Positions 8,513 through 62,905 of a stretch of 64,000 bases of DNA are shown here, piece by piece. Under the pieces are notes generated by a model. That model saw nothing but the letters and a program-made list of their open reading frames with translations, was not told the DNA's origin and did not search any database. Each line of letters starts with the position of its first letter. Position 1 is the first letter of the stretch. This DNA comes from Methanooceanicella nereidis (GTDB lineage Archaea > Halobacteriota > Methanocellia > Methanocellales > Methanocellaceae). A program made the position numbers and the translations under genes. Location of the stretch: the NCBI RefSeq assembly GCF_021023085.1, contig NZ_PGCK01000013.1:1-64000 (forward strand), in the 5' to 3' direction.

Positions 8513-8609
8513 ACATTTTTGATATTTTAATTTTAGAACAGACCTAAGATTAATATTACTGGAACACAATGTTAATTGATATTGTTTTTATTTACGGTGG
8601 GTAGATATA

Positions 8610-9026: not shown

Positions 9027-9139
9027 TCGATCTATAGAAATTAAATAGACAATATTCCCATAATGCTATGACACATCGCTATCATTGAGGCGCATAGGGG
9101 GACTGTCTAAAAATGAAGAAGATAAAAATATAATGGTGT

Positions 9140-10084: not shown

Positions 10085-10151
10085 AGTTATAAGTAAAACC
10101 CCTCGAGATTATTTCGCTTGCGTATATTATAGATTTTATGTCTATTATAGA

Positions 10152-14532: not shown

Positions 14533-14548
14533 GGATGGAGGATAGGAA

Positions 14549-28766: not shown

Positions 28767-28798
28767 TAAAAAAGTGATAAAAAACAAGGAGAAGGGGA

Positions 28799-29287: not shown

Positions 29288-29296
29288 GGTATTGAG

Positions 29297-29818: not shown

Positions 29819-29841
29819 ATTGTGCAAGGGAGGGCTAAAAT

Positions 29842-30579: not shown

Positions 30580-30607
30580 AAGTAATAAAAAATGGAGTGT
30601 GAATAAA

Positions 30608-32383: not shown

Positions 32384-33996
32384 TCATGGCAGAAACGGTG
32401 TCAGGCACGGCTCAGGATAATATTGCAGGTAAACCATCCTCAAGCCTGACAGGCTCCTTAAAGCAATTAGCCTTACCGTTCACCACATATATACAGAGCT
32501 ACGTGGAGAGCAGCCGTATCGACGTAGACCTGCTATACATGATCACATACATGAACTCTATCGCGACAGCCGATATCGCCAGGGATGAGATATTCAGGAG
32601 AGTATCGGAGCGAGAAGAGTTCGTATGCTCAAAATACATTCACCAGGTCTATCTGCTGGCGAAGAACTGGAACTATGAGTACAGCGTCGCCTGTGCTATC
32701 GTGTCAAAAAGAATGGCCAATAAAAGGCTAAAGGACTTGCTTGCAAGGCTGGCGAACGCGATGTCCTCAGGCGAGCCGGAAAAAAGATTCCTGGAAAACG
32801 AATGGGTCACGATGATGACGGTCTACAAGAACGAGTACGAGAGAAGCCTGGAGTCCCTGAAAAAGTGGACGGACGCCTACACAGCTCTGCTCGTGTCAAT
32901 GGCGTTCATATCTGTGACCGTCTTACTCTCGGTCATCCTGTATAACCTGGGCGATCCTGAAACGACGCTTTACGGGACGGTTTTCCTGACCGCGATGGTA
33001 GGAGGCATCGGCGTATTCATATTAAGGTCTGAGGCGCCTAAAGAGAATAAGACGCATACCCTTGCATATTGTTCGGTTGAACAGCAACAGATAAAAGACA
33101 TGAGTAAAGTCCTGATACCTGCGGCCATAGCGTTCACCATATTTTTCTTATTGATCGGCATCAATGTCGGGTTCATAATGATAGTCATCGGCCTGCTTAT
33201 CGCGCCAATAGGGTTCGTAGGGATGATGGACGACAAGAACATCGATAAGCGCGACAGGGACTTTTCACAGTTCACGAAAATGCTCGGCTCCGCAGTGGGC
33301 GGAATGGGCGTAACGGTAAAGGAAGCCATTACCAAGGTCGACAAAAAGTCTATAGGTATGCTGGAGCCTCTTGTAAACATATTATACGTCCAGCTTATAA
33401 TGGGCCTTGAGCCAAGGCTTTGCTGGATGAAGTTCGTGGGCAGTTCCGGGAGCGACCTGATAAACAAATTCACATATATATTCCTGGACGCTCTTGACCT
33501 TGGCGGAGATGCTACGAAAATAGGCAAGCTTGTGAACTCCACGAATCTCGAGATAGTTCTTTTAAGATTGAAAAGAGGGATGGTCGCGTCAAGTTTCACC
33601 ACGCTCGTCGTGCCCCTCCACATAAGTATGTCGGCCCTCATCGTTTTCATAGTCGAGATCCTTGTGATCTTCTCGACGATGATAGAAAAGCTTTATAGCA
33701 GCATGGGGGACTGGGGCTCAGGAGCAGGATCGAGCGGTGGCGTATCTGCCGCTTCGTTAGGATTTAACCTGTTCCAGAACGTCCCCGTCGATTTTCTACA
33801 GCAGTATTCGATCATGCTGGTGATCGTCTTAACGATAGCCAACACGATGGCCGCTAAGGCCGTCGTAGGCGGAAACAATTACAAGTATTGCTATTACGGT
33901 TCGATCATGCTGGTGACGTCGGGACTGTGCCTCATAATCGTACCGCTTGTAGTTCAGGGAATATTTAGCTTCCCGACATTGACAGAGGGAGTATGA
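32380..33996 (+). CDS. flaJ: Archaellum membrane platform protein FlaJ
   Basis: The 538-residue polytopic membrane protein has two cytoplasmic GspF/TadC-like domains (for example REEFVCSKYIHQVYLLAKNWN and TKMLGSAVGGMGVTVKEAI) separated by helices at about 165-205 and 245-285, with four or more helices at the C-terminus. It is the membrane core on which FlaI and FlaH dock. It overlaps both neighbours (ATGA with flaI, ATGATG with the next gene), so the downstream unknown gene is translated with it. Confidence 0.94.
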   Translation: MIMAETVSGTAQDNIAGKPSSSLTGSLKQLALPFTTYIQSYVESSRIDVDLLYMITYMNSIATADIARDEIFRRVSEREEFVCSKYIHQVYLLAKNWNYEYSVACAIVSKRMANKRLKDLLARLANAMSSGEPEKRFLENEWVTMMTVYKNEYERSLESLKKWTDAYTALLVSMAFISVTVLLSVILYNLGDPETTLYGTVFLTAMVGGIGVFILRSEAPKENKTHTLAYCSVEQQQIKDMSKVLIPAAIAFTIFFLLIGINVGFIMIVIGLLIAPIGFVGMMDDKNIDKRDRDFSQFTKMLGSAVGGMGVTVKEAITKVDKKSIGMLEPLVNILYVQLIMGLEPRLCWMKFVGSSGSDLINKFTYIFLDALDLGGDATKIGKLVNSTNLEIVLLRLKRGMVASSFTTLVVPLHISMSALIVFIVEILVIFSTMIEKLYSSMGDWGSGAGSSGGVSAASLGFNLFQNVPVDFLQQYSIMLVIVLTIANTMAAKAVVGGNNYKYCYYGSIMLVTSGLCLIIVPLVVQGIFSFPTLTEGV

Positions 33997-35111
33997 TGTT
34001 GACGGTTGAAGAAATGTTCGTATTCGGGGTCCTCGGGGCCATATCGATATTGATCATCCTCATAGTGGTATATGTCAGGCAGTCTTTTAAGAGTGATACG
34101 ACCCTGATGGACGGATTTCTAAAATCTCTGCAAAAGAATGCCGATGAGAGCGAGGAAGAGGATATTACTGCAGAGTCATCAGTCGATTCGCAGTTCCTGG
34201 GCAATGATTTTAGGAATGACCTTGACCATGGGGGCGTCTCTTTAGACCTGGAGGTCGAGGAGATCGGCATAATCGAGGATGACACTACCGGCACCGTAAG
34301 ACCGGCGCCAAATAAGATGTCATTATCAAATAGAATTAAAAAACTCTTACCAAAAAAACAGGAGGCAAAAAGACCGGAGCCGTCGAAGTCCGGATCCCCG
34401 GGGCCGTTTGCAGGGATCATGGCCGTATCCGGCAGCATATTTAAACCAAAGTCGAAAAGTGGCCCGGTAAAACAAAAAATGGAAGACATCGACAATGAGC
34501 TTGATGCGCTTATAACCGACATCAGGAAAGAGGAGCCCTCTGAGATCGAGAAGATGAAAAGGAAAAACAGTGTCCTGTACAAGGGCATATTTAACAGGAT
34601 GGCGGCCCGGATCGAAGGCTTATTCAACATAGTCAACAAGAATGACATGAAGTCTGTGGACGATGAGCTTAATAATGTGCTTCATGAGTCGCAGTATATC
34701 CTGAAGGATAACGCAGGCGCTGAACAGGGGATTGAACTTGCCACCAAGGGAGAGAGCATAACAGATCTTGATAAGGCAATAAGATCTTCGGAGCAAAGGT
34801 TACCGAACATTGAAACCCAGGAGAGTAAATTCGAACTGCCGCTCGGCGGAGGTCTTCTGGACGCTATGGATGCCTCGCCGATGCCGGAAATGGAGACCCC
34901 GGAGGTCACTCAGGACATGAGCTTTGAAAAGGTAGACGACATACTTTCAGAGCTTGAGGAGAGTACGAAGGTCGAAAAAGATGTCGCCCTGGACATCATG
35001 AGGGACCTGAAGGGTAAGGCCATAACGTGCGAGGATCTTGAAAGCGAGCTTACGGACATTCTGGAACATTTCAAGAGCAGGAGTGGGACGACGAAAAAAT
35101 CGAAAGCCTGA
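33993..35111 (+). CDS. Acidic single-TM protein coupled to flaJ (unknown)
   Basis: The 372-residue protein has one N-terminal transmembrane helix (MFVFGVLGAISILIILIVVYV, about 8-28), then a long hydrophilic, strongly acidic cytoplasmic region. That region has basic/proline patches (KKLLPKKQEAKRPEPSKSG) and predicted helical segments such as KMEDIDNELDALITDIRKEEPSEIEKM and VEKDVALDIMRDLKGKAITCEDLESELTDIL. It does not match any standard fla component I know. Its ATG overlaps the flaJ stop, so it is the seventh member of the motor operon. It may be a chemotaxis or membrane-anchor adaptor; this is inference. Confidence 0.75.
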   Translation: MMLTVEEMFVFGVLGAISILIILIVVYVRQSFKSDTTLMDGFLKSLQKNADESEEEDITAESSVDSQFLGNDFRNDLDHGGVSLDLEVEEIGIIEDDTTGTVRPAPNKMSLSNRIKKLLPKKQEAKRPEPSKSGSPGPFAGIMAVSGSIFKPKSKSGPVKQKMEDIDNELDALITDIRKEEPSEIEKMKRKNSVLYKGIFNRMAARIEGLFNIVNKNDMKSVDDELNNVLHESQYILKDNAGAEQGIELATKGESITDLDKAIRSSEQRLPNIETQESKFELPLGGGLLDAMDASPMPEMETPEVTQDMSFEKVDDILSELEESTKVEKDVALDIMRDLKGKAITCEDLESELTDILEHFKSRSGTTKKSKA

Positions 35112-45630: not shown

Positions 45631-47088
45631 ATGGGTAGAGATACGGTTAACACCGGCATAGAAGGGATGGACGAGTTACTCGGGGGCGGCATACCAAAAG
45701 GCGCCACAGTGCTCATAAACGGCCCTCCCGGTGCCGGAAAGACGGTCATAGCGCTGGAATATGCGTTCAACCAGGCGAAAAAGGGTGAGCGTGTGCTATT
45801 CGTAAGCACCTGCGAGCCCATATACAAGATAAACAAATTCGCCTCCAGCCTTTCCTTCTACGACCTGGACCTTATCAGCGGCGGCATCAACATGGACTAC
45901 TATGGCCCCAAAGAAAAAAGAGGCTATGTAGAGTTCCAGGACTATTCCCTGGGCCAGATCTCCGACGAGCAATATGTAGGCGATTTTTTTGACGGCATTC
46001 AAAAAAAGGTGACCAGAAGAAGCTACGAACACCTCATTATTGACTCTATCACCTCTATCAATATGCTTCTGGGGAACGAGATAGAGAGGCGTAAAAAAAC
46101 TCTCCTGTTCAGCGCATGGGTATCGCGCATGGGATGCACGACATTGCTGACCTCAGAGGATTACGGAATATCGGGAACAGAAAGATTCCTATCGGATGCG
46201 GTCATCGACCTGGGGAGGTCGGAACTAAGATCTTCAAAATCAGGCTGCGGCAATATATCCGGCATGCATTTCCGTACTATAGAGGTCGCCAAGCTTCGCG
46301 GTAAAAGGCATATGTCAGGCAAGTATTTTTATAGCATTTCCAGCGACGGCATCAGGATAATCACACCCGGGAGTAAGCCGGCAGCCATGGAGGAGAATAC
46401 CGGCCTTACCGGCATAAAGGACCTGGACGAGAATATCGGAGGTGTCAGATATGGAAACATATGGCACATCAATACGGATGACGCCAGGACGTTTGATCCG
46501 ATTTTAGATACAATGGCCAGGGAGACTATCAGGTCCGGGGACGGCATTATATGGATAAGGCCGCAGGAAGATCAGTTTACGTCTATAGATATACTTAAAA
46601 GAAGGTTCGGGGAAGAAGTCATGAATGCCATAAATGAAAAGCGCTTTATCATGATAGACCCTGGCAGATCCGGGACGCCGAAAGACCTCAAGAATGTCGT
46701 CATAAACGTACCTGTCACGGACAAATTATTCTCCGAGCTCTCCGAACTGATAATATCGATCATGAGGCCGGGAGACGTCAGGTGGCGCGTCTATCTTGAC
46801 ATAGGAAGCCTGAACGGGTCGACCGGCAAAGAAGACGCTAAAAAATTCTATTCGGATATTTCTGCGTTCATCAGGAATAACGAAGAGATACTAATGACAT
46901 ACAAGGAAACATATGTTTCCGGCAGAGGGCTGCTGAACACCATAGAGTCCCGCTCCGACGGCATAATCGACGTCTGGAATAGCGGAGGGTACAGGCTTTT
47001 ACAGGTAAAGAAAGCCCCGGGTGCCATAAGCTTTGAGCCGTATGTGCTAAAAATGGAAGATGACCGGATCACTTTGTTCCCGTTTTGA
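45631..47088 (+). CDS. Two-domain KaiC-like protein with degenerate second domain
   Basis: The 485-residue protein starts with an intact RecA/KaiC domain: Walker A GPPGAGKT (31-38), Walker B HLIIDSIT near 130, and AKLRGKRHMSGKYF near 230. The second half begins like another KaiC domain (TGLTGIKDLDENIGGVRYGNIW). It then lacks any P-loop, with INTDDARTFD at the expected place, so it probably no longer binds ATP. GGAAGT precedes the ATG. It resembles circadian-like or archaeal signalling KaiC proteins in architecture only. It is divergent from an Lrp regulator. Confidence 0.85.
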   Translation: MGRDTVNTGIEGMDELLGGGIPKGATVLINGPPGAGKTVIALEYAFNQAKKGERVLFVSTCEPIYKINKFASSLSFYDLDLISGGINMDYYGPKEKRGYVEFQDYSLGQISDEQYVGDFFDGIQKKVTRRSYEHLIIDSITSINMLLGNEIERRKKTLLFSAWVSRMGCTTLLTSEDYGISGTERFLSDAVIDLGRSELRSSKSGCGNISGMHFRTIEVAKLRGKRHMSGKYFYSISSDGIRIITPGSKPAAMEENTGLTGIKDLDENIGGVRYGNIWHINTDDARTFDPILDTMARETIRSGDGIIWIRPQEDQFTSIDILKRRFGEEVMNAINEKRFIMIDPGRSGTPKDLKNVVINVPVTDKLFSELSELIISIMRPGDVRWRVYLDIGSLNGSTGKEDAKKFYSDISAFIRNNEEILMTYKETYVSGRGLLNTIESRSDGIIDVWNSGGYRLLQVKKAPGAISFEPYVLKMEDDRITLFPF

Positions 47089-49896: not shown

Positions 49897-51108
49897 TCAT
49901 ACGCAGTCAAGCCTTACAATACGGCTGATCGAGCCGGTATTGCTGCCGGAGGCAGTTATGTTAAAGTCTGCGTATCCATTGCTGCCGGCATATATATTGT
50001 ATACCCATATGAAATCATGCGTTTCCCCGGGGAGTATGTTGACGGACACCGGAGATGGCGGAGATATAAGATATACTTCGAAATTACCCGTATGCAGATC
50101 ATACCGTACCTGCGGGCAGACGTTGTTCGCCGTTGAATCCCCGTAGTTCGTCACATGGGCGATGAGGCTCACCGTGATGTTATCTTTATGCTTCATTGTG
50201 GAAGGCTGCAATTCCGGCACCAGGCCGATCGACGTTGTCACAGCCGTGCTGCTGCCTGGAGACCCTGTCGTCGTATCATAAAGATGCAGCCTGATATTCT
50301 CCCCGCCAAAATATACGGTAGCATCGACAGTATCATCAATCCTTACCACTGAGTAATTGACGTTCTTTACCAGTCCTGCCCCGGTAAAAATTTCTTCAAA
50401 ATAGCTTTCCCATTCGCCGGCATATATCGAGGTCACGCTGATAGACACGTTATTGACATAAGCCTCCCTGTGAACGCAGTTCTCAGGAAAGATAGTGCTG
50501 GTAAGCATCTCATTTTGCGTGGAAGCTACGGAAGATGCCTGATCGTTTATCCTTATGGGAAACATCATAACGGTTATGTTGGATGAATTACCGGGGTCTC
50601 GCCTGACCGACATACAGGGGTCGCCCAGCTTCTTGTGCCCGGCAGCCTGTGATAATATCAGCATACCGGATTCGTAATGATATTTCTGGTCCAGCCAGTA
50701 GTTATTATTAGATGAATATGTGATACTGCCCATATTCGTAAGATCGGTCCCCAGATTGGTCCCGCTCTGGTTATACGCGGTGATAATAAGCGAGCCGTAG
50801 GACGGATCTATCCCGAGCGCCCCGCTTGAGCTGCCGGGATCTATCAACGGTATGGACCCGCCGCCCATTTCCACGTTGGTCGTCACTATTCCCCTGCCTA
50901 TTGCTGCGGCTGCGTCGATACGGGACTTATGGTCCATCATATCGCTCAGCACGTTTTGCATATGGTCTGATTCTGCCTGTTTTTTCATCTCCGGTATGTA
51001 TACGACCTTGAAGAGCGCTATCACTGACACGATAAGTCCCAGCACAAGTATAGCGCCGATCACCGTCGACACTGCAGAATTTGAAGACCTGAAACGGACA
51101 TTTGACAT
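49897..51108 (-). CDS. Large class III signal protein of the second pilus operon
   Basis: The ~403-residue protein has a pilin-type N-terminus (SAVSTVIGAILVLGLIVSVI ... FKVVY) and a long beta-rich external domain with many N-x-S/T sequons. Its size makes it unlike an ordinary pilin; it could be a tip or minor pilin-like subunit (DUF7289-like). GGGG seven bases before ATG 51108 favours this start over ATG 51123. Only one base separates it from the pilin gene upstream, and it ends the four-gene operon. Confidence 0.75.
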   Translation of the reverse strand: MSNVRFRSSNSAVSTVIGAILVLGLIVSVIALFKVVYIPEMKKQAESDHMQNVLSDMMDHKSRIDAAAAIGRGIVTTNVEMGGGSIPLIDPGSSSGALGIDPSYGSLIITAYNQSGTNLGTDLTNMGSITYSSNNNYWLDQKYHYESGMLILSQAAGHKKLGDPCMSVRRDPGNSSNITVMMFPIRINDQASSVASTQNEMLTSTIFPENCVHREAYVNNVSISVTSIYAGEWESYFEEIFTGAGLVKNVNYSVVRIDDTVDATVYFGGENIRLHLYDTTTGSPGSSTAVTTSIGLVPELQPSTMKHKDNITVSLIAHVTNYGDSTANNVCPQVRYDLHTGNFEVYLISPPSPVSVNILPGETHDFIWVYNIYAGSNGYADFNITASGSNTGSISRIVRLDCV

Positions 51109-51109
51109 A

Positions 51110-51547
51110 CTATACCCCTGCATTATTTATCATAAAATGCCCCAGGGACGAGCGTGAAGCCCTGTCATATACAAAAACGGATAGGTTTTGCCCGGTATCG
51201 AATGGAAATACCATCGCTTCGCCGATATCCCATAATACGTTCCCGTCATTATGGCTGACAAAAGACCCCGGCCGGGACAGATTGTAAGCCGCGCCGTTGA
51301 TCATCACGTCTATATCGCCAAGCGGGACGCTATCTCCTCCCGAATGCATAACTATGACCGAGGTATCGTTAATTTCCACGGACGTGCTGACGATATGAGA
51401 CTGCGGCCGGGAAAAAAACGAATATGTAGCGGCGATCAGGATAGTAAATATCGCGACCGTTATCAAAAGTATAAGAAGTTCGCCTACCAGCTCTGATACG
51501 GCAGATTCCGAACTTAACATCGAAGCATTGTTTCTCTTAGTTCGCAT
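51110..51547 (-). CDS. Type IV pilin-like protein
   Basis: The 145-residue protein has a short basic leader, then SAVSELVGELLILLITVAIF, a pilin_N-type hydrophobic helix processed by PibD-like peptidase, and a small beta domain (VIVMHSGGDSVPLGDIDVMING). Its size fits a structural archaeal pilin. ATG 51547 is preceded by GGGTG at good spacing; GTG 51553 is an alternative. It lies 9 bp after the platform protein gene. Confidence 0.85.
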   Translation of the reverse strand: MRTKRNNASMLSSESAVSELVGELLILLITVAIFTILIAATYSFFSRPQSHIVSTSVEINDTSVIVMHSGGDSVPLGDIDVMINGAAYNLSRPGSFVSHNDGNVLWDIGEAMVFPFDTGQNLSVFVYDRASRSSLGHFMINNAGV

Positions 51548-51556
51548 GCTCACACC

Positions 51557-53503
51557 CTAAATAAATATCATGAATACGGCATACCCTGTTGCCATCATTA
51601 GAAGGGAGTGCTTTAATCCTGAGGCCACGTTCCCTTCGCCCATCATCCCTGCCATGACCCCGGAAAATAATCCCTGTATAAGGACCGAATGATAGAATAG
51701 CAGATGCAACATTCCTGTTCCCGAAATATCCATAAAAGAAAATCCCATCGAAGCCATATGTGTTGAACTGTCGGCCGGGATACCGGGAAGGATCGGTAAA
51801 AATACGCTTACGAGCGTGTATATGATGTACAGGAAAACGAAGAAGGATATGTAGATTATCGAGACGTAGACAAGCATATTGGAGAACCTCTCCTCTTTCC
51901 GCGACAGGTTGGCTGAAGCGTCGGCGGCCGCGATCTCGAGAGTGTCCTTGATGTTGCCGGTAGACTCGTTCGCCCTCACTATAAGGGTGACCATCCTTCG
52001 TATCGATGCCGTGTTAATCCGGCGCTCGAACCTTATCAGCGCGTCTCTCGTATCCGCGCCCCACTCTATGTCCGCGCACATCTTCCTTATCTCGACGTTA
52101 AGCACGCCGAGATTGGACTTCAGCAGCGTCTTGATCGCCAGAGCCAGCGTCAGACCCGATTCGTTGACGCCTGCCAGCCTCTTTAAAAATTCCGGTATCG
52201 CCGTATCGATCTTTTTTATCCTGCTGTTGCGCGCTTCCCAGAATACGACGAAAGGAAGCACCGCTATAAAGAACCCGATAAGTAACATGTCGTCAAGCTG
52301 TGATAGTGATCCGTATGAAAGATCAAGATAGCCGTTTCCCGTCACCAGTACGAACAGTACGCCGGCGGGGGCGCTGACATAAAGCACTTTATATGGATCA
52401 TTCGTGATGTATGATATCGGATTATCTAAAAATTTCCTGACCCGGTACCTGAACTGCGCGCGCCTGATAGCCACGTCCTCGGACGGCAGCAATTCCCTCT
52501 TGTTCACATCTTCGTACTCGTTGAGCTTTTTCTTTCTGATCGATATCCTGCCGCGGCCGTCTCCAAGCCCCATGGCGGACAGGAACCATATGAATAATAT
52601 GGAGCCAACAGGGATCAGGAAGTATATCAGGAATTGTATCTGGCCTATGTCCGTAACGCTGATGAGCCCTATTATGACCATTATGGTCATAAGGAAAAGT
52701 GGGCCTGCGATGAACGCGGTCACATATATCTCCGCGAACATGCTTAGCATATCGGTGAGCACTTTTTGTTCCTGCGAAGCGACTACCCGATACTGCTCGG
52801 AGCGTGAATGCAGGAAGGTCGTCATATCGCCTCCGCTTTCCATCAGGCTGGTCATGCTTTCGAAAAAGTTTTTTAAAGGCTCGGAAGGTGTCCTGTCCGA
52901 CACGACCTTTATTGCGGTTATCAGGTCATATCCCAGAAGCTCGACGCTGCGTACGACGGACTCCATCTCGACCGCGACCTCGCCGTAGATGTCCTTATGA
53001 TCGCAAAGGGCACGGAAAACATCCAGAGGGTTCATGCCGCCCTTGCTCATCGCGTACATGAAGGTCACAGCATGCGGAAGGGTGAGATTTATCTCTGACT
53101 CCCTTGCCGATGCGATGTATTTAGGATATCCTGCTAGCGCATAACAGAATATCATGAATGATACCGCAAAGGACGCTACAAGCACAATAAATAGCATAAG
53201 GACGGAATTTCCGGCCAGCGCGCCGATGATCGAATATTTGAGGCTGTCGGGAAGCAGATAGCTAAACCCGTCATAGAAATCGGGTATCCTTCTTGCCGCA
53301 AAAACGAGACAGATCAGAGACACCGCCGCTGCTGCCAGGCTGCCGAGAAAGATCAGCCTTGACGCATATATATCAGACGGTGTGCTAATATTCGCCTTTC
53401 TTAGATTGATCTCGAGATCAAAGAAATTCTGGCGGTTTTTCCTGGCATACCCTCCAAAAAGCCTGTATGCAAACCTATCCGAAAAAAATTGCGAGAGAGC
53501 CAT
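51557..53503 (-). CDS. Type IV pilus platform protein (TadC/FlaJ-like)
   Basis: The 648-residue membrane protein has two GspF/TadC-type domains (KGGMNPLDVFRALCDHKDIYGEVAVEMESVV near 150-180 and ESGLTLALAIKTLLKSNLGVLNVEIRK near 440-465). Several membrane helices lie around each, nine or so in total. It should form the membrane platform for the FlaI-like ATPase upstream. It is longer than the archaellum FlaJ and clearly distinct from it. Seven bases separate it from the ATPase gene. Confidence 0.9.
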   Translation of the reverse strand: MALSQFFSDRFAYRLFGGYARKNRQNFFDLEINLRKANISTPSDIYASRLIFLGSLAAAAVSLICLVFAARRIPDFYDGFSYLLPDSLKYSIIGALAGNSVLMLFIVLVASFAVSFMIFCYALAGYPKYIASARESEINLTLPHAVTFMYAMSKGGMNPLDVFRALCDHKDIYGEVAVEMESVVRSVELLGYDLITAIKVVSDRTPSEPLKNFFESMTSLMESGGDMTTFLHSRSEQYRVVASQEQKVLTDMLSMFAEIYVTAFIAGPLFLMTIMVIIGLISVTDIGQIQFLIYFLIPVGSILFIWFLSAMGLGDGRGRISIRKKKLNEYEDVNKRELLPSEDVAIRRAQFRYRVRKFLDNPISYITNDPYKVLYVSAPAGVLFVLVTGNGYLDLSYGSLSQLDDMLLIGFFIAVLPFVVFWEARNSRIKKIDTAIPEFLKRLAGVNESGLTLALAIKTLLKSNLGVLNVEIRKMCADIEWGADTRDALIRFERRINTASIRRMVTLIVRANESTGNIKDTLEIAAADASANLSRKEERFSNMLVYVSIIYISFFVFLYIIYTLVSVFLPILPGIPADSSTHMASMGFSFMDISGTGMLHLLFYHSVLIQGLFSGVMAGMMGEGNVASGLKHSLLMMATGYAVFMIFI

Positions 53504-53510
53504 TATGGCT

Positions 53511-55298
53511 TTACACCTCTGGCCTTATCAGATCCCGCAGCTCTCCGCGGTCGATCAGTTCCAGCACCTGTTCCGGCATGACGCTGTACAGGTGCGTTAC
53601 GATGCTAAAGCTCCTGTAATCGCGTATGTTCTCCTTTTGCAGGTGATCGAGCACTTTTATCCTGTTATTGATCTCGCGGTCAATGCGGGCGCGGTCCCAT
53701 CCCCGCTTTGCCATGATGTCATTGATGACGTAGGATTCAGCAAGCCTCTCGTAGGTGTCATTCGCCGAATCCCACCTGAACAGCTCGTTAATGCGAAGAT
53801 TATTGGTCTTCACGTCCACCCCTGTGATCTCGACTACGCTCTTTGTCCGGCGCGCCCTGACTCCTTCATTATATGTTAATTCCTGTATGCTGACGATGTT
53901 GAGCGACTGGAGCATCATGTTCGGCACGTTTATAGGCTCGTTGAGAAGCCTGTTGACAACAGCCTGTATAGATCCGGCATGCATTGTAGAGTATGTCGTA
54001 TGCCCGGTATTCATCGCCTGGAACAGAGTAAGCGCTTCTTTTCCCCTCACTTCTCCCACGATTATGTATTCCGGCCTCTGCCTCAGTGCCGCCTTAAGAA
54101 GCTCATACATGCTGATCTCGCCCGGAACCCCTATGGCAGGTGCGTCACGGGTGAGCCCTGCGATCCAGTTATTATGATACAACGTCAGTTCCCGGGTATC
54201 CTCGATAGTTATCACTTTGGCACCCTGCGGCACGAACAAGGATACGGCGTTCAGTGACGATGTTTTTCCTGATGCCGTGCCTCCTGCGAATAAAAGATTC
54301 TTATTATTTTCAATCGCAAGCCAGAAATATGAGAGCATCTCGCTGGACATTGTTTTGAACTTTAACATGTCAACGGGCGTGAACGGGTCAGGGCGGAACT
54401 TACGTATCGTGAAAGAGCTCCCCCTTGTGGTCACTTCCCTCCCCAGCGTAGCCTCGATACGCGAGCCGTCCGGCAGTGTCGCGTTCGCAATGGGATTCGC
54501 CACGGATATATGCCTGCCGCCGCGCTGCACAAGCCTCATTACCAGAGAGTTGAGCTCGTCCTCCTTCGATATCTTGATATTCGTCTTTATGTTCTGGTAT
54601 TTTTTATGAAATAGAAATATCGGCACGTTAACGCCATTACATGAAATATCCTCTATCTGGCCATCATGCATCAAAGCGTCAATGCACCCGTAGCCCAGGT
54701 AATTTCTTTCCAGGTAGTAGAGTATTTTCTGCCTCGACCTCCCGGGCAGGTCGATGCCGTATATAGAGATGAGCATATCGCATTTTGACCGCAGTATTGA
54801 ATTACGGTCAACGTCAGATTGAGCCGGTTCCCCCCTGATCAATATGTCCCGCAGGTCGTCATAGAGCCTCTCGAGGAGCTCTACCTCCAGGCCGGTAAGC
54901 TCCGGCTCGCATACATGATACTCGTATTCCTTTAAGCCGTTATCATAAGTTATTTTGATGAACGTGAAAGGTTCGCGGACACTATAACGTTCTATCTCGA
55001 CCTTGCCTTCCCCGGAGATATCGCTCCCTGAAGGCGGAGCTATGCGATCCCCGTCGCCCGGTATAAGTTCTATGGGACCGGTCAAGCTTTTTTCTTTTAT
55101 CGAGCGTACAAATCCATCAATGCCGGCATTTTCCGGCACGAGCTCTCCCGGACTATTTTCCCCGTAAAAGCTTTCCGCCCTTACCTCGTGTGATCCGCCT
55201 TTATCTTCCCGCCTGAAGACACTTTTTATCGACCTATGGATACCTAAGATAATACCTGTGGGATCTTTAGTACTGGTCGGACAATTATCGCTGCTCAT
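53511..55298 (-). CDS. Type IV pilus assembly ATPase (FlaI/TadA-like)
   Basis: The 595-residue secretion ATPase has Walker A GGTASGKTSS near 337-346, Walker B EYIIVGEVRG and His box GHTTYSTMHAGS, with the preceding CNGVNVPIFLFHKKY block. The N-terminal ~150 residues are acidic and low in conservation. It is paralogous to FlaI at 30608 but leads its own operon with the platform protein and two pilin-like genes. No fla accessory genes accompany it, so a pilus rather than an archaellum is inferred. Confidence 0.92.
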   Translation of the reverse strand: MSSDNCPTSTKDPTGIILGIHRSIKSVFRREDKGGSHEVRAESFYGENSPGELVPENAGIDGFVRSIKEKSLTGPIELIPGDGDRIAPPSGSDISGEGKVEIERYSVREPFTFIKITYDNGLKEYEYHVCEPELTGLEVELLERLYDDLRDILIRGEPAQSDVDRNSILRSKCDMLISIYGIDLPGRSRQKILYYLERNYLGYGCIDALMHDGQIEDISCNGVNVPIFLFHKKYQNIKTNIKISKEDELNSLVMRLVQRGGRHISVANPIANATLPDGSRIEATLGREVTTRGSSFTIRKFRPDPFTPVDMLKFKTMSSEMLSYFWLAIENNKNLLFAGGTASGKTSSLNAVSLFVPQGAKVITIEDTRELTLYHNNWIAGLTRDAPAIGVPGEISMYELLKAALRQRPEYIIVGEVRGKEALTLFQAMNTGHTTYSTMHAGSIQAVVNRLLNEPINVPNMMLQSLNIVSIQELTYNEGVRARRTKSVVEITGVDVKTNNLRINELFRWDSANDTYERLAESYVINDIMAKRGWDRARIDREINNRIKVLDHLQKENIRDYRSFSIVTHLYSVMPEQVLELIDRGELRDLIRPEV

Positions 55299-55497
55299 CC
55301 AGATAAAACTATAATTTTATAGGATATAACTTTTATTATCAAATTTTTGTTTATTTTTTTTATTTAGTCAATATTTAGCCTTAAAATCGAAAACAGAGCC
55401 AGATACTTACTATTTTGTAATTAATTATATGAAATCGCAGAATAGAATTTGTGTAAAAAGAAATATTATATTATGTTTATTTCTTTGGTTCTGAAAG

Positions 55498-55506
55498 TAT
55501 TTATAA
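55498..55506 (+). promoter_or_regulatory. TATA box of the HTR/KaiC operon
   Basis: TATTTATAA lies about 62 bases before the GTG start at 55569, and A-rich sequence precedes it. It would serve the rightward HTR-like and KaiC genes in the 270-bp divergent spacer. Confidence 0.4.
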
Positions 55507-55568
55507 GCGAAATACACATTTTAGGTTAGCGAGGGGTAAAAAAATAGGCCATAAAAAAGAGGGATCAC

Positions 55569-56423
55569 GTGAGCAGATCAATAGTAAAATATCCGACAGG
55601 AATAATGTCGATGGACACCATAATCAAAGGAGGGCTTCCCGCAGGGTCTTTCACGCTTCTGCTTGGCGAGGTCGGGGCAGGCAGCCAGGAATTCGCGTAT
55701 ACCTCCATGCTCATGTTATCTCAGATGAAAAAGGAGCGTATTGCGCTGGAGACGGATGGCAAAAGCAATGGTGTCAACCTGCCGGACAAGATATGCTACA
55801 TATCGTTCACAAGGACCAGGGATAACATACTGCTGGACATATCCGCATTAAAAGTAGCTAGCGTAACTGACGTAGAGTCAAACCTCATATTCATTGACCT
55901 GTCGGGGGAATATTTTTCCCGCACGCAGGTCCCGATGTCCTGGACAAGGGATGAGATGGCAACGCTGACAGACCTTAAGACAGCCAATACGAACAGGACG
56001 GTCTTCAAGGCCGTCATCGATACCCTGGAAAAGTATGCGCCAAACAACCTGGTCATAATCGATTCGCTAACGGACCTCCTCAGGAGCGCGGGCTCCGAAA
56101 ACCTCACATGGAGCGATCTTGTCTCCCTGCTTAAAGGGATCCAGAGAATGTCAAAACAATGGAACTCTGTGATATATGCGCTCCTCACGGCGGACATATT
56201 CGACGCCAGCAAAGAGGAAGAGGTCTCGGATTGCGTTGACGGCGTCATGGTCTTTAAATGGGACATCACCGGTATCAATCAGCTGCAGCGTACGATGTAC
56301 ATAAAAAAATTCAGGGGATTGATGCCATACCTTGAAGAAGATAACGTAGTAAGGTTCGAAACGAAGGTAAGTGCCAGCCGCGCCTTTGAGATATCGAACA
56401 TCAGAGAGATCATAGGTAGATGA
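55569..56423 (+). CDS. RecA/KaiC-fold protein with destroyed Walker A (HTR-like)
   Basis: The 284-residue protein aligns in layout with KaiC/FlaH (IMSMDTIIKGGLPAGSFTLLLGEVGAG). At the P-loop it reads GEVGAGSQ (33-40), so the essential Lys and Ser/Thr are replaced by Ser and Gln. The Walker B region is NNLVIIDSLTDLL. It resembles the HTR-like RecA-superfamily proteins of archaea and may bind a partner rather than hydrolyse ATP. The start is GTG with GAGGG upstream. It overlaps the next KaiC gene by 4 bp and diverges from the pilus operon. Confidence 0.85.
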   Translation: MSRSIVKYPTGIMSMDTIIKGGLPAGSFTLLLGEVGAGSQEFAYTSMLMLSQMKKERIALETDGKSNGVNLPDKICYISFTRTRDNILLDISALKVASVTDVESNLIFIDLSGEYFSRTQVPMSWTRDEMATLTDLKTANTNRTVFKAVIDTLEKYAPNNLVIIDSLTDLLRSAGSENLTWSDLVSLLKGIQRMSKQWNSVIYALLTADIFDASKEEEVSDCVDGVMVFKWDITGINQLQRTMYIKKFRGLMPYLEEDNVVRFETKVSASRAFEISNIREIIGR

Positions 56424-57121
56424 CGATGAAACTACTTAGCACAGGTGTAAACGGATTGGATGAGCTTCTTCACGGAGGGTTCCCGGAGAAGCACATGGTC
56501 GTGGTCTTTGGAGGAATGGGTACAGGCAAGTCCACGCTTGCCCTGCAGTTCATAGTGAACGGCCTGATGAAAGGCGAGAAGACAGTATACATGAGCCTTG
56601 AGGAGAGGGAGAACGAGATAGTGGAATCCGCCAGGGGTTTCGGCTGGGACATCCAATCATTCATCGATAACAACATGCTGATCCTGATAAGGCTTGACCC
56701 GAATGACATAAAGTCAACGCTTTCAAGGATAAAGAACGAGATGCCGAAGCTGATAAAGTCTTTCGGAGCATCGAGGCTTGTCATCGACTCTATCACTTTG
56801 TTCGAGATGATGTTCTCGGACGAGGCTGAGCGCAGGCTTAATCTTTTTGAGATATTCGCCATACTAAAGGAGACAGGAGTGACGGCATTGATCACTTCGG
56901 AAGCCGCACGCGAGGACTCGTATTCCACCAGGTACGGGCTTGTCGAGTATGTCGCTGACGGCGTCATAATGCTGAGATACGTAAGGCAGGACGAGCTCCG
57001 CGACGTCAAGCTGGCGGTAGAAGTGGTCAAGATGAGACGCCATAACCATTCGCGCAGTATCAAGCCTTATGACATAACGAATGAAGGCATAGTAGTGCAT
57101 TCAGAGTCTGAAGTGTTCTAA
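56420..57121 (+). CDS. Single-domain KaiC-like ATPase
   Basis: The 233-residue RecA/KaiC protein has an intact Walker A, GGMGTGKS (31-38), the Glu pair in SLEERENEI, Walker B ASRLVIDSITLFEMMFSDEAERR and VEVVKMRRHNHSRSIKPY at the C-terminal edge. Its start overlaps the stop of the P-loop-less partner (ATGA), so a one-to-one complex of active and inactive subunits is plausible. ATG 56426 is an alternative with better Shine-Dalgarno spacing. Confidence 0.9.
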   Translation: MTMKLLSTGVNGLDELLHGGFPEKHMVVVFGGMGTGKSTLALQFIVNGLMKGEKTVYMSLEERENEIVESARGFGWDIQSFIDNNMLILIRLDPNDIKSTLSRIKNEMPKLIKSFGASRLVIDSITLFEMMFSDEAERRLNLFEIFAILKETGVTALITSEAAREDSYSTRYGLVEYVADGVIMLRYVRQDELRDVKLAVEVVKMRRHNHSRSIKPYDITNEGIVVHSESEVF

Positions 57122-57143
57122 AGGGAAGTGAAAACCCCTTTAG
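57118..57143 (+). terminator. Terminator hairpin after the KaiC pair
   Basis: CTAAAGGG (57118-57125) and CCCTTTAG (57136-57143) form a perfect 8-bp stem with a ten-base loop, beginning at the stop codon. T-rich sequence follows within a few bases. Confidence 0.6.
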
Positions 57144-57511
57144 TAACATTATTTTATGCCCGGGAATGAGGTAGTTTCATCCCAAATTTCGATAGGATCA
57201 TAAAGATCATATTAAACCTTAAAAAATATTTACTAAGATCTTTATTGTTAAATGTGTAGCAACTGCACGATTTTTATAAAAAAGACATAAATGCCATTCT
57301 CATATAATATTATAAAAGGATAATACAGGATACGTCTTTTGAAAAATATAGTAACCCCATACGGGGTAAGCACAATTTTTTATATCAGTAATAAATTATA
57401 ATCTGTAGTAAATGAATTAAAAAATAATTCTACAGCGTAGAAAACTTTATTTTATAGTAATATAATAATTAAAATAAAATAGTAATCGATTGTATTGGAG
57501 GTGAGCTCCGT
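57144..57511. other. AT-rich promoter region of the Roadblock-KaiC operon
   Basis: No gene is seen. The DNA from 57230 to 57480 is AT-rich with several TATA-like tracts (for example ttttttatatcag near 57375). A near-perfect GGAGGTGA ribosome-binding site at 57497-57504 precedes the Roadblock-like gene. Confidence 0.5.
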
Positions 57512-58054
57512 ATGGAAGATATGATAAAAACAAAAAAGAGGGGGCGGCAAACTAGCTGGAAGAACAATGTCGAGGACGACCTGAAAGGCATTCTCGATAA
57601 GAAAGGAGTCATAGGAGCTTTCCTCATATCTAAAAACGGTGAGACAGTATCCCAGGTGTTCCAGGAGACACTAAAGCATAAAGAAGGCGGCCTCATGCAG
57701 TTCGTTAAAAAGGTGGTCCCCGCCATCATAAACATGAGGAACGTGCCTTTACGCCGGACCATATTCGAGACAAAGGACGGCTCGGTGATATTCCATCATA
57801 CTGAAAACGGGATAGTCGGATGCGTACTTGATAAAGACTATGACCTGATCACGATCATGCTCGATGTAAGGATGGCTGGAGAGCTTATCGACAGCCACCT
57901 GAATAACGATGAGTTAGACCAGGATGAGCGGGACATCATTCTCAGAGAGAATCGCGATGAATTCAGGACCCTAAACTCCGAGCTCTTAACCGAGATCGAA
58001 AAGCACTTCGGATACAATATGACAGAAGCTCTGATCCAGAGGACAGTAAGGTGA
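57512..58054 (+). CDS. Roadblock/LC7-like protein
   Basis: The 180-residue protein has a basic N-terminus (MIKTKKRGRQTSW), then a segment ILDKKGVIGAFLISKNGETVSQVF characteristic of Roadblock/LC7 (MglB-like) folds. VIFHHTENGIVGCVLDKDYDLITIMLD matches the second half of that fold. A charged helical extension of ~50 residues ends the protein. Such proteins regulate small GTPases or ATPases; none of the GTPase type is adjacent, but a KaiC gene follows after 7 bp. The call rests on motif pattern, not a search. Confidence 0.7.
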   Translation: MEDMIKTKKRGRQTSWKNNVEDDLKGILDKKGVIGAFLISKNGETVSQVFQETLKHKEGGLMQFVKKVVPAIINMRNVPLRRTIFETKDGSVIFHHTENGIVGCVLDKDYDLITIMLDVRMAGELIDSHLNNDELDQDERDIILRENRDEFRTLNSELLTEIEKHFGYNMTEALIQRTVR

Positions 58055-58061
58055 AGCAAAA

Positions 58062-58985
58062 ATGAAGAAGCTCAAGACTGGTATATTAGGATTAGACAGC
58101 CTCCTAGACGGGGGTTTTAACGAACACTCGGCAACGATACTTGTAGGTTCCTCGGGTACCGGAAAGACGACGATGGCTTTGCAATTTTTAAGAAAAGGGC
58201 TTGAGACCGGTAACGAAGGCATATACATCACGCTGGAAGAATCTAAGGAGCAGATATTAGCCGAAGCTAAAAGTATGGGCTGGGAGGACATTGAGTCGTA
58301 TATCGAGCAGGGCTCCCTTGTTTTTCTGGAGGCGGCCGGCAAAGACCTTGCGGATTTCATAAAGGAAGAGCTGCCCCAATTCGTCGAGGACTGGGAAGGC
58401 TCAAACGCGCGCATCGTGATAGATCCGCTGACGCCAGTGATATGGGCGTTTGAGGATAAATACGATCAGAGGATGCTTATTTCCCAGCTATTCAAGGAGA
58501 CTAAAAGAGTCGGCACAGTACTTAGCACGATCGAGGAGCACGGGAACGCCGGGGAGATGGCAAGCGGCATGGCCGGAGGCGAGACAGTCATACCGATGTA
58601 TCTCGCAGACACTATCGTCCGCATTTATTTCGCCGGGCTGGGATCCATGGGTAACCGCATGCTCAATATCATAAAATCAAGGCAATCATGGCATAGCGAT
58701 CTTTCTTACCCTTACAGGTTCGTGCTGGGCATAGGGATCGTCATAGACACAAGCGAGATGGAACCCAAGAGAATAAAGAAGCTCACTCCGGAAATGAAGC
58801 TGCAGATCAACGAGAGAGTGGCCAGCCTGCCAAAGCGCGACGCAGAGCAGATCAAGACGATCGTCAGATACATGGAGCGCGCGGACCTTGGCGACATGGC
58901 GCCCGAACGGATAATCGACATGCTCATTGAGGATTACCAAAACTCCGCCCAGGGAACGATGGAAGGCACCGTTGGGCCAATGTAA
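58062..58985 (+). CDS. KaiC-like ATPase with C-terminal helical extension
   Basis: The 307-residue protein has Walker A GSSGTGKT (29-36), LEESKEQIL, Walker B NARIVIDPLTPV and a KaiC-type core to about residue 240. A ~60-residue charged helical tail follows (LTPEMKLQINERVASLPKRDAEQIKTIVRYMERAD...). AAGGTGA precedes the ATG. It is cotranscribed with the Roadblock-like gene, and the zinc-ribbon gene follows 49 bp later. Role: likely signalling ATPase; substrate unknown. Confidence 0.9.
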   Translation: MKKLKTGILGLDSLLDGGFNEHSATILVGSSGTGKTTMALQFLRKGLETGNEGIYITLEESKEQILAEAKSMGWEDIESYIEQGSLVFLEAAGKDLADFIKEELPQFVEDWEGSNARIVIDPLTPVIWAFEDKYDQRMLISQLFKETKRVGTVLSTIEEHGNAGEMASGMAGGETVIPMYLADTIVRIYFAGLGSMGNRMLNIIKSRQSWHSDLSYPYRFVLGIGIVIDTSEMEPKRIKKLTPEMKLQINERVASLPKRDAEQIKTIVRYMERADLGDMAPERIIDMLIEDYQNSAQGTMEGTVGPM

Positions 58986-59034
58986 ATATGTCCGGCAATA
59001 AAATGACCCGCCGCGGCAGCGATCGGAGGAGTGA

Positions 59035-59205
59035 ATGCTGAAACAAAAACATATGTCGTGCCGTAAGTGCGATAGCGATAAGATCAAAATAGTGTTTTTC
59101 GAGACGGAAGGAAAGAAGTTCGCCGTATGTGAAGCATGCGGCGCGATACAGAACATAGGCATAAACCTGAAAGAAAGATACAGTAAGTGGAAGGAATACA
59201 GGTAA
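59035..59205 (+). CDS. 56-residue zinc-ribbon protein after KaiC
   Basis: The small protein MLKQKHMSCRKCDSDKIKIV... has two CxxC pairs (CRKC about 9-12, CEAC about 33-36), the spacing of a zinc ribbon, and a basic aromatic tail (ERYSKWKEYR). A strong GGAGGAGTGA ribosome-binding site stands directly upstream. It follows the KaiC gene closely and may belong to that operon. It could bind nucleic acid or its ATPase neighbour; neither is shown. Confidence 0.75.
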   Translation: MLKQKHMSCRKCDSDKIKIVFFETEGKKFAVCEACGAIQNIGINLKERYSKWKEYR

Positions 59206-59869: not shown

Positions 59870-59943
59870 GGGCCTGTGGTCTAGTTGGTTATGACATCGC
59901 CTTTACACGGCGGGGATCAGGGGTTCGAATCCCTTCGGGCCCA
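59870..59943 (+). tRNA. tRNA-Val (anticodon TAC)
   Basis: Acceptor GGGCCTG (59870-59876) pairs with CGGGCCC (59936-59942, one G-U), discriminator A at 59943. The D-arm includes GTCTAGTTGGTTATGAC, the anticodon stem TCGCC/GGCGG encloses loop TTTACAC with anticodon TAC, and the T-arm is AGGGG-TTCGAAT-CCCTT. CCA is not encoded. A T-rich run follows. Confidence 0.96.
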
Positions 59944-60077
59944 CTAGAGTTTTTTTAAATCTTTATTTCTACAAGAGTACGTTATTGACGTAATTTAAGA
60001 ATACTGGCTATGTTTTGGCACATGAAAAATGCGTGCATGAGGGCTATAAAAAAATAGGTTGCATAAATCTTCTATGA

Positions 60078-62651
60078 TTACTTCTTCCGGAATAGCAAAT
60101 AAGCCATAAAAGCCAGCCCCATAAGTAACACGATGCTCGCGATCGGATAGAGATGATCGATACCCCGGCCGGAACCAGAAGAAGGAGTGACCGGCGGTAT
60201 CGGAGTGAAAACCGGTATAAAATCCCGTATTTGCTCAGGCACCTTTGAAGGGACTGGAGAAGATATAGTTGAAATATGGTCTTGTTTTTCGGATCGGTAA
60301 TATCCGTTAGCGGACGACATAACGCTCCCCGATGCCTGAGATTTACACGTCCTGAATTTCAGGATATAGCCATGAGCTAAACAGTTGCCGGTCTCGTCTT
60401 TTATTTCATCGGATATATGAGCGGTATACTCCGTATCATATTCCAGTTCGCTATAAGGAGAAAATACAAGCATATAGCCACTACATGATAGGTTTCCCGT
60501 CACAGCAGTACTATTGTTGGTGTCGGGGTAAATTAAAAACGTCGAGTCACCAGTGCCGGAAAGATCGATAGATTCGCTGAACATGAGCCGGACGATAGCA
60601 TTAACGGGAACGTCGATCGAATTATTAACGGGATATGTTTCTAACAACGACGGTGATGTCCTGTCAATAGTTATCGAGATCGAATTAGAGGTCTCAACGT
60701 TTCCAGCATTATCTATGGAGCGATAGAATATCCTTGTCGTTCCTTCGCTGCTGATATTCAACGTGCCGGATTCGATCCAGGAAATTCCATCAAGACTATA
60801 CCCGGTAATATTTATGCCCGACAGATCATCAGAGGCGGCCAGTGTGACCTGAACGTCTGAAAGATACCGATCATTGTTACCGGAGGACCCGTTCAGTATG
60901 CATATCGTGGAGGGAGGCGTGCGGTCAATATTTATTCCCGTGACGGTGAACGAGTTTGTGTTCCCTGCAATGTCAGAGGCGGTTCCGGTTGCCGACTGAG
61001 AAGAGCCTTCGGTTGAGATCAATATGTCAGATGTAATAGTATCTATTCCGGAGATGCTGTCTGAAGCAGTGAACCGAACGACAACGCTTTCATTATGCCA
61101 GCCGTTGACATTTGCCTGAGATAACAGTGTCGCGGCTATTTCCGGAAGTGTTTTATCTATCTTGATTGTCTGTGAGCGAGCAGGCTCAATGTTGCCGGCA
61201 TAATCCATAGAGCCATAATAAAAAGTGGATAATCCCTCATCAGTGATCGTGAAAGGTTCATATGGAGTCAAGTTCAAACCATCAAAACCATATTCTGTCG
61301 ATTTGACTCCAGATCCATTATCATATGCGTTTAGCAGGATACCAATATCGGATGTATACCAATCATTATTACCTTTTGTTCCGCTTATGGTCGTAGTTGT
61401 TACAGGACAGGTATCATCTACAATAATAGATGTGTCATTATAAATGTTTGAGAAGTATGAAAAAGCTTGAATTCGGCTATTAAAAGTATCAGCAACATAT
61501 ACATTATTGATAGAATTTAATACAATATTATATGGTACGTCCAATTGTCCATTTCCATTACCAGGTAATCCAAATTTTGTGATAAAATTGCCATTACAAT
61601 CAAATATTTGTACACGATTCAAAGAATCGGTAATAAAATTTGAATCATTTTCATCGATTTCTATACAATACATATTTTGTAATTGGCCATCTCCACTTCC
61701 AGTAGTACCCCATTTTTTCATAAAAATCCCATTACTATCGAATACCTGAACTCGATTCAATGAATCAATAACAGAAACATAATCGCTATTATTAATTGCT
61801 ATATCACATGGTGCCTGAAATTTCCCATCAGTAATACCAAAGCTTCCCCATTTCGTAACAAAATTACCATTAGAATCAAAAACCTGTACACGATTATAGA
61901 AAATATCTGTTACAAATACAAATCCGCTTGAGTTTATCGCAATCCCATAAGGTGACTCGAACTGGCCATCACCGCTTCCTCTGCTCCCCCAGTTTGTAAT
62001 GAAGTTACCATTACTATCAAATACTTGAACTCTATAGTTTTTTGAATCTACGACATATACAAACCCGCTGGCATTTATGGCAATGCCTAAAGGATACATG
62101 AACTGACCATTATTACTGCCACACCCGCCCCACTTTGTCACAAAAACTCCATCTGGAGCAAATACCTGCACCCTATGGTTCTCTGTCTCGGCCACATTAT
62201 TGCTGTACTCGGTCACATATACATATCCGCTATCGTTAATCGCAATCCCGTAGGGACGGGCAAACTGGCCATCTGAGCTGCCATAGCAGCCCCATTTGAA
62301 CATGTATTCATAGCCGTCTATCGAGGCGTTTACCCGTACAGTGTAATTACCCTCGGGAACCAGTGTGTTTGAATCATCCCTTCCATCCCACATGACACTA
62401 AAAAAGCCGCTTCCCTGGACTCCCTGCCCCATATTTCTGACGACATTATAAAAGGGGCCGAGAATTTCCAGCATGACAGGATGTTCATAAGCTAGATCAA
62501 GCGTATAATCGATAGTAGTGCCTGCACCGGATGAGTTAAAGGCTGAAGGCACTGCATGTACGTCTTCTACGCCAGGAGATGCAGCCAGTGATGATTGAAC
62601 TGCACTGAGAATTAATATGAGTAGTAGATACCAGCAAAGGATACGCCTCAT
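60078..62651 (-). CDS. Large NHL-repeat surface protein with C-terminal anchor
   Basis: The ~857-residue protein has a signal peptide (LCWYLLLILILSAVQSSLAAS). A FlgD-like Ig domain follows (FSVMWDGRDDSNTLVPEGNYTVRV). About six NHL repeats come next (DGQF..P.GIAIN.SGFVYV.D..N.RVQVFDSNGNF.TKWG), forming a propeller. Three or more Ig-like domains with DRTPPST and DDTCPVTTTTISG openings follow. A big_5-like Ig domain (LLETYPVNNSIDVPVNA) precedes a Ser/Pro spacer and a C-terminal helix with FRKK. It is likely an exported adhesion or lattice protein. The NHL part is more AT-rich than its flanks. ATG 62651 or 62678 is the start. Confidence 0.85.
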   Translation of the reverse strand: MRRILCWYLLLILILSAVQSSLAASPGVEDVHAVPSAFNSSGAGTTIDYTLDLAYEHPVMLEILGPFYNVVRNMGQGVQGSGFFSVMWDGRDDSNTLVPEGNYTVRVNASIDGYEYMFKWGCYGSSDGQFARPYGIAINDSGYVYVTEYSNNVAETENHRVQVFAPDGVFVTKWGGCGSNNGQFMYPLGIAINASGFVYVVDSKNYRVQVFDSNGNFITNWGSRGSGDGQFESPYGIAINSSGFVFVTDIFYNRVQVFDSNGNFVTKWGSFGITDGKFQAPCDIAINNSDYVSVIDSLNRVQVFDSNGIFMKKWGTTGSGDGQLQNMYCIEIDENDSNFITDSLNRVQIFDCNGNFITKFGLPGNGNGQLDVPYNIVLNSINNVYVADTFNSRIQAFSYFSNIYNDTSIIVDDTCPVTTTTISGTKGNNDWYTSDIGILLNAYDNGSGVKSTEYGFDGLNLTPYEPFTITDEGLSTFYYGSMDYAGNIEPARSQTIKIDKTLPEIAATLLSQANVNGWHNESVVVRFTASDSISGIDTITSDILISTEGSSQSATGTASDIAGNTNSFTVTGINIDRTPPSTICILNGSSGNNDRYLSDVQVTLAASDDLSGINITGYSLDGISWIESGTLNISSEGTTRIFYRSIDNAGNVETSNSISITIDRTSPSLLETYPVNNSIDVPVNAIVRLMFSESIDLSGTGDSTFLIYPDTNNSTAVTGNLSCSGYMLVFSPYSELEYDTEYTAHISDEIKDETGNCLAHGYILKFRTCKSQASGSVMSSANGYYRSEKQDHISTISSPVPSKVPEQIRDFIPVFTPIPPVTPSSGSGRGIDHLYPIASIVLLMGLAFMAYLLFRKK

Positions 62652-62905
62652 ATGTCTATTCTCTCCTGAAGCAAGCATTAAAAGGATGAATTAATTCACG
62701 ATAAATAAAGGCTGGAAAATAATCCCCATACATCAATATAATCACCTTAAAACTTGATTTCAAACATGTGCAATAATAGATGAAAGTTTGAATATTTATA
62801 CTTAATATCACAAAAATGTAAATAATTAATTAAAAGTATGTCATGGCAATATGCTTACATACCAGGGTTGCCGCGGAAAGTTCACAGCTTACCGTATAGC
62901 ATGGA

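Follow-up and report, generated by a model that had tools for sequence, protein, structure and literature searches.

A conserved pair of inactive and intact KaiC-family proteins as a candidate partner of a type IV pilus ATPase in Methanooceanicella nereidis and other archaea

Organization of the locus

The window analyzed here, a stretch of 64,000 nt from Methanooceanicella nereidis (assembly GCF_021023085.1, contig NZ_PGCK01000013.1), contains two adjacent genes for KaiC-family proteins, indicated as iKaiC and KaiC3, which are divergent from a type IV pilus operon and whose products appear to be functional partners of the pilus. iKaiC (55569-56423, + strand) has a GTG start and encodes a 284-aa protein of the 'HTR-like' family, with a KaiC fold recognized by Pfam KaiC and no P-loop; KaiC3 (56420-57121, +) encodes an intact, single-domain KaiC, the partner of iKaiC, assigned to TIGR03880 (KaiC_arch_3). 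The two reading frames overlap by 4 bp (ATGA). An AT-rich spacer of 270 bp separates PilB from iKaiC (55299-55568), with a GC content of 0.24 compared with 0.45 for the window. Comparison of Methanocellaceae revealed a conserved element upstream of iKaiC, TCTGAAAGTATTTATAAG (55490-55507, +), resembling a TFIIB recognition element (BRE) with a TATA box; in three Methanocellaceae genomes the matching place is occupied by TCTGAAAGTAT, after which comes a TATA-like stretch rich in A and T.

The leftward operon, on the - strand, is an archaeal type IV pilus set, composed of a T2SSE ATPase, a T2SSF platform protein and pilins. PilB is a FlaI/PilB-type pilus assembly ATPase (53511-55298; T2SSE, 119 bits) and is followed by a PilC/TadC-type platform protein (51557-53503; T2SSF, 116 bits in two stretches), by type IV pilin-like protein 1 (51110-51553; archaeal Pilin_N, 38 bits, cutoff 25.2) and by pilin-like protein 2, a DUF7289 protein (49897-51123; DUF7289, 43 bits, and a weak Pilin_N match). 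The archaellum-motor model gives 386 bits on PilB, below its cutoff of 550, indicating that this operon is not an archaellum. Since the window carries a separate archaellum operon with its own FlaH, FlaI and FlaJ (28047-35111, +), PilB represents a second FlaI-type ATPase; in the whole genome seven T2SSE matches are found, six of which exceed the cutoff. Further archaellin-family genes are present at 13918-15103. Thus, the picture given by an initial annotation of this DNA, namely five rightward genes in a defined order with a 4-bp overlap, a shared spacer, a compact pilus operon and a second FlaI-type ATPase, proved accurate, including coordinates and starts.

The iKaiC and KaiC3 proteins

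iKaiC scores 43.9 bits on Pfam KaiC (cutoff 26.6). Its P-loop in the window copy reads GEVGAGSQEF and contains no Lys; an alignment of 47 iKaiC sequences from methanogens, Hadarchaeota and Thermoplasmata revealed that the Walker A Lys is absent in all of them, being replaced by S, N, G, H or T within a loop of consensus GxG[A/S]Gxx[E/D][F/Y], and that the catalytic Glu pair, present in KaiC3, is changed to T/S followed by R/K, again in 47/47. Since these changes are common to all the aligned sequences, the inactivation of iKaiC is old and shared, rather than the result of decay in this genome. The inter-subunit K-x-R motif is mostly kept, with K/R247 found in 47/47 sequences and R249 in 40/47; on the basis of its aligned position and of what is known of KaiC proteins, we take K247/R249 to be a trans element. 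Copies of iKaiC with in-frame stops, due to decay or sequencing errors, were observed at three loci of one genome (L119, L144, L166).

The iKaiC model obtained with AlphaFold2 (AF2) displays a KaiC fold, with a predicted local distance difference test (pLDDT) score of 87, and in a Foldseek comparison with the PDB its best matches are SSO2452 and KaiC CI, while FlaH (4yds) is at rank 31. A plasmid search with iKaiC returned a single record, which is the source of the 'HTR-like' family name; the Natrinema protein annotated in this way has 36% identity over 97% of the iKaiC length. Since this iKaiC homolog is annotated as HTR-like, the 'HTR' that the initial annotation had listed as a separate component is the same thing as the P-loop-less KaiC, under its database name.

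KaiC3 scores 335.7 bits on TIGR03880, above the curated cutoff of 249.45, and in its family the Walker A Lys is present in 21/22 sequences, the Walker B Asp in 22/22, and the trans K-x-R is conserved; in the KaiC3 of locus L117 the Walker A Lys is changed to Arg, by local decay or sequencing error. The combination of a P-loop-less KaiC-fold protein with an intact KaiC, recognized early at this locus, is therefore confirmed by a Pfam KaiC match without Lys on one side and a TIGR03880 match above cutoff on the other. Scans of both proteins with family profiles found no helix-turn-helix (HTH) domain.

Pairing of iKaiC with KaiC3

Among 295 Halobacteriota genomes, iKaiC is present in 131 and KaiC3 in 127: both are found in 126 genomes, iKaiC only in 5, KaiC3 only in 1 and neither in 163. 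All five iKaiC-only genomes belong to a single genus (family f14; family labels stand for inferred identities unless a named locus is given). For two of them, G135 and G212, inspection of the loci led to rejection of an unpaired iKaiC, as a diverged KaiC3 adjoins it. In a second genome collection, KaiC3 is downstream of iKaiC in 71 of 73 named loci, and at 46 of the 73 the overlap is exactly 4 bp; the pairs of Thermoplasmata retain the same overlap.

The two genes lie side by side in families of the methanogen type and in f5. They are split in f9, f13, f18, f20, f27 and f29, families of high GC that are inferred to be haloarchaea because of their GC content (0.64-0.69) and their similarity to Natrinema. 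The pair occurs both in cultured methanogens (Methanoculleus, Methanocalculus) and in haloarchaea.

Association of the pair with PilB

Of the 65 named loci with enough sequence, 61 have a divergent PilB ahead of iKaiC, a frequency that greatly exceeds chance. This arrangement is found in families f1, f4, f6, f11, f14, f15, f21, f22, f23 and f24, and the lineages that keep it are Methanocellales, many Methanomicrobiales and anaerobic methanotroph (ANME)-type archaea. The conservation of gene order in relatives, which had been proposed as a check on the whole cluster, therefore holds for iKaiC-KaiC3 and PilB; the last three rightward genes are separable. In one close relative, G001, exactly the segment pilin2-pilin1-PilC-PilB-iKaiC-KaiC3 is absent between the M29 peptidase and Roadblock genes, and this pilus and the pair are missing from the rest of the genome as well. 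A PilB tree of 60 rows extends this observation: in 12 methanogen genomes lacking the pair (G001, G079, G095, G105, G130, G257, G067, G115, G207, G187, G125, G276) no PilB of the linked clades is present, and only other PilB clades and FlaI are found. Some genomes of one f14 genus have PilBs of these clades elsewhere in the genome and retain the pair.

A functional link should outlast the loss of physical linkage, and it was therefore tested in the high-GC genomes, in which the genes for iKaiC, KaiC3 and PilB are not neighbors; the tree analysis was prompted by the weaker best PilB scores seen earlier in pair-lacking genomes. One PilB clade (L214-L218 and L239, support 100/100) is present in 6/6 pair-bearing and in 0/9 pair-lacking high-GC genomes, a split with p=0.0002, uncorrected for relatedness. 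The best PilB E-values likewise part 42 pair-bearing from 9 pair-lacking high-GC genomes, one of the 42 (G156) conforming only through a fragment of the clade PilB at a contig end. Both states, with and without the pair, occur within each of the genera g31 and g51. These genomic patterns indicate that iKaiC-KaiC3 is very probably coupled functionally to the pilus in methanogens and in the high-GC genomes.

That common descent alone keeps the pair beside the pilus operon, with no functional relation between them, is very improbable: close relatives can retain gene order, but the arrangement is conserved over many families, the two are repeatedly absent together, and neutral linkage is disfavored because the pair and the PilB clade co-occur even when unlinked.

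The Roadblock-KaiC-zinc ribbon module and other genes of the window

Downstream of KaiC3, after a gap of 390 bp, are located three other genes on the + strand: a Roadblock/LC7-like protein of 180 aa (57512-58054), a second KaiC with an intact P-loop and a C-terminal extension (58062-58985; Pfam KaiC, 124.7 bits) and a 56-aa zinc ribbon with four Cys and weak TFIIB/Zn-ribbon matches (59035-59205). This group, indicated as module B, is present in 4/4 Methanocellales genomes, including G001, which lacks the pilus and the pair. In G002 all five rightward genes are found in order, and direct tblastn revealed that the module B KaiC is intact; in G003 the pair and module B are on separate contigs. 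Each of the three Methanocellales genomes other than that of M. nereidis has a conserved copy of the zinc ribbon. Roadblock-KaiC pairs also occur in three f6 genomes, with no pilus gene in sight in these short loci.

The Roadblock-like assignment, already made from the bare sequence, is a weaker one and derives from profile comparison: the profile of the family against the PDB gives Roadblock/LC7 chains as top matches (best E=0.003) and the best ortholog matches Robl_LC7 with 17.8 bits (E=0.0027), below the gathering score of 23, but the window copy itself has no match in Pfam or NCBIfam. Its single-sequence AF2 model, with pLDDT 41, was not used.

Since the gap is 390 bp long and the last three genes occur without the others in a relative, the five rightward genes are not one unit, and Roadblock, KaiC and zinc ribbon form a separate neighboring module. 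A single five-gene module was thus rejected on the evidence of G001 and f6. In a looser form, all five genes could still belong to one pathway ending at the pilus, with Roadblock-KaiC as its input; the conserved order in G002 and the presence of all the genes in G003, across two contigs, agree with this idea, as does the reported frequent presence of genes for Roadblock proteins (arCOG02603) at pilus loci (PMC4858521). The same gap, the persistence of module B in G001, the Roadblock-KaiC pairs of f6 and the distribution of the Roadblock protein, found in 7/295 genomes vs 131 for iKaiC, make it quite unlikely. The proposal that the KaiC proteins of the cluster act as a pilus switch, by analogy with FlaH, is reasonable for iKaiC-KaiC3 and is not supported for the Roadblock protein, the KaiC encoded next to it and the zinc ribbon, which persist in a relative where the pilus is missing.

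Another KaiC of the window (45631-47088, +) has two domains, the first with an intact P-loop (GPPGAGKT) and the second degenerate, and represents a fused active/inactive couple near the PilB-PilC pilus operon. Beyond the cluster, a tRNA-Val gene (59870-59944) precedes the gene of a surface-type protein with NHL repeats and a Big_5 domain (60078-62678, -).

Relationship to known KaiC-family systems

A close term of comparison is ArlH (FlaH), the KaiC-family component of the archaellum. As in that system, a KaiC/RecA-fold protein is encoded beside a FlaI/PilB-type ATPase and a platform protein, and the AF2 model of iKaiC matches FlaH 4yds. Differently from ArlH, which is a single protein whose P-loop binds ATP, two proteins are found here and one of them is inactive; moreover, ArlH is co-directional with its ATPase, whereas iKaiC-KaiC3 is divergent from PilB. 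The ArlH model gives 32 bits for iKaiC and 51 for KaiC3 vs a cutoff of 215, and in the tree FlaH forms its own branch, while iKaiC and KaiC3 are placed on other ones. Stimulation of ArlI is thought to require the ATP-bound form of ArlH, which detaches from ArlI when it autophosphorylates (PMC8978795).

For Methanomicrobia, Makarova et al. reported in 2016 KaiC families (arCOG01172/01173) that are possibly transcribed together with a pilus ATPase operon (PMC4858521), and those loci are probably the same as the ones considered here. Since KaiC and Roadblock proteins at pilus loci appear in that report, the term 'undescribed', used in the initial annotation for the whole cluster, was too strong. 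Its main text does not mention an obligate active/inactive pairing or a signature of inactivation, nor co-absence with a PilB clade, co-occurrence of unlinked genes or a separable Roadblock module; the additions made here to that main text are the obligate pairing, the joint absence and the split into two modules. Inactivated KaiC-like domains were described in a 2018 paper (PMC5847659), which refers to the KaiC-hub article of 2017 (mBio). For the 'HTR-like' family, to which iKaiC belongs, no function or partner is assigned in the accessible literature. CirA, a KaiC homolog of Haloferax volcanii and in this respect similar to KaiC3 and iKaiC, differs in being reported for motility and cell shape: upon its deletion, cells stay rod-shaped and motility increases (PMC13286277).

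DUF7125 (PF23442) is similar to iKaiC, having a KaiC fold without P-loop and adjoining PilB-PilC in this genome and in others. It lies directly downstream of a second PilB-PilC in M. nereidis itself (L209 5459-6226, contig C1) and in L124 (10885-11652), and beside PilB also in two f5 genomes. It carries a K-I-R-G motif and groups with iKaiC (99/97), apart from FlaH and KaiC3, although the long branches make this grouping tentative. Unlike iKaiC, it occupies a separate branch and is found beside a different PilB paralog, and KaiC3 was not seen next to it at the loci read. DUF7125 is possibly a second pilus partner family.

Proposed mechanism and alternative explanations

Since the pair is present or absent together with the pilus motor in many archaea, it may well act as an ATP-driven pilus switch. 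The best single mechanism would be that of an ATP-gated, ArlH-like regulator of PilB, for which the chances appear evenly balanced. According to this model, iKaiC and KaiC3 would assemble as one hetero-oligomer, where KaiC3 would bind ATP and either hydrolyze it or undergo autophosphorylation; iKaiC, performing no chemistry itself, would pack against KaiC3 and could supply the Lys/Arg trans element. Depending on its nucleotide or on its phosphorylation, the couple would then dock on PilB or not and, hence, turn pilus assembly on or off; the direction in which control acts and what the trans element does are presumptive. A more specific version, in which the two proteins form a hetero-ring, with a subunit inactivated throughout its family donating the trans Lys/Arg to the active one, and act as a split ArlH, a clutch on PilB timed by ATP or by phosphorylation, is doubtful.

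Several observations weigh against this interpretation. Family f3, probably Methanosarcinaceae, retains PilBs of a related clade, and neither iKaiC nor KaiC3 was found in it, so that the pair is not required for running such a pilus. Family f5, presumably Archaeoglobi, contains the pair with no adjoining PilB, and when its PilBs were searched for a clade that follows the pair, none was found; the iKaiCs of f5, and some others, have an incomplete trans K-x-R. In Thermoplasmata the pair follows a gene for a predicted sugar-nucleotide epimerase, named by sequence motif. In addition, co-presence does not prove that the proteins touch, genomes of related organisms do not count as independent samples, and no biochemistry on iKaiC or KaiC3 was found in the accessible literature. 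Since f5 and Thermoplasmata keep the pair without linkage to PilB, it has uses beyond the pilus.

The f5 loci display further features: in 3 of the 5 inspected an additional KaiC and a protein of ~190 aa, weakly DUF7504/DUF835-like in the two scanned, are located upstream of the pair. The resulting operon of KaiC, ~190-aa protein, iKaiC and KaiC3 (L071 7912-10671, L126 8640-11334, L123 5365-8069) possibly contains two successive KaiC couples. In the Thermoplasmata loci L204, L205, L206 and L207 (~8050-10495), the predicted epimerase, iKaiC and KaiC3 genes overlap.

These exceptions bear on a different explanation, namely that the pair is a general signaling hub, with the pilus as one of its clients and the linkage in methanogens as a habit of that lineage. 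Active and inactivated KaiC homologs were reportedly proposed as archaeal signaling hubs in 2017, and the f5 pairs without PilB linkage, with their extra KaiC and ~190-aa protein, as well as the pairs beside the epimerase in Thermoplasmata, would agree with such a role. However, in several methanogen and high-GC lineages the pair and particular PilB clades are missing together more strictly than would be expected of a hub serving many clients, making this explanation rather unlikely.

The pair could otherwise control the transcription or abundance of pilus genes instead of the motor, perhaps through an unlinked transcription factor. Divergent genes over a shared spacer are common for regulator/target pairs, and iKaiC has a conserved BRE/TATA-like element ahead of it; moreover, KaiC-family control of gas vesicle expression in halobacteria is cited in PMC4858521, and a transcriptional overlap of CirA with CsmR, a regulator of motility, is reported (PMC13286277). 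That no HTH domain was found in either protein argues against this possibility, and the tracking of one PilB clade by the unlinked high-GC pair fits a protein partnership at least as well; transcriptional control is thus unlikely, somewhat more so than the hub.

Implications for archaeal pili

Apart from the archaellum, almost nothing is known about how archaea regulate their pili; according to PMC4858521, regulation had been studied only for the Sulfolobus archaellum. The present analysis narrows the candidate switch from five genes to two, iKaiC and KaiC3, for which both the target, the ATPase PilB, and a mechanism open to testing, that of an active/inactive KaiC couple, can be named. If the hetero-ring version of the PilB regulator were correct, Archaeoglobi and Thermoplasmata would have put the pair to other uses; if DUF7125 also proved to be a pilus partner, P-loop-less KaiC proteins would be regular parts of archaeal pilus motors.

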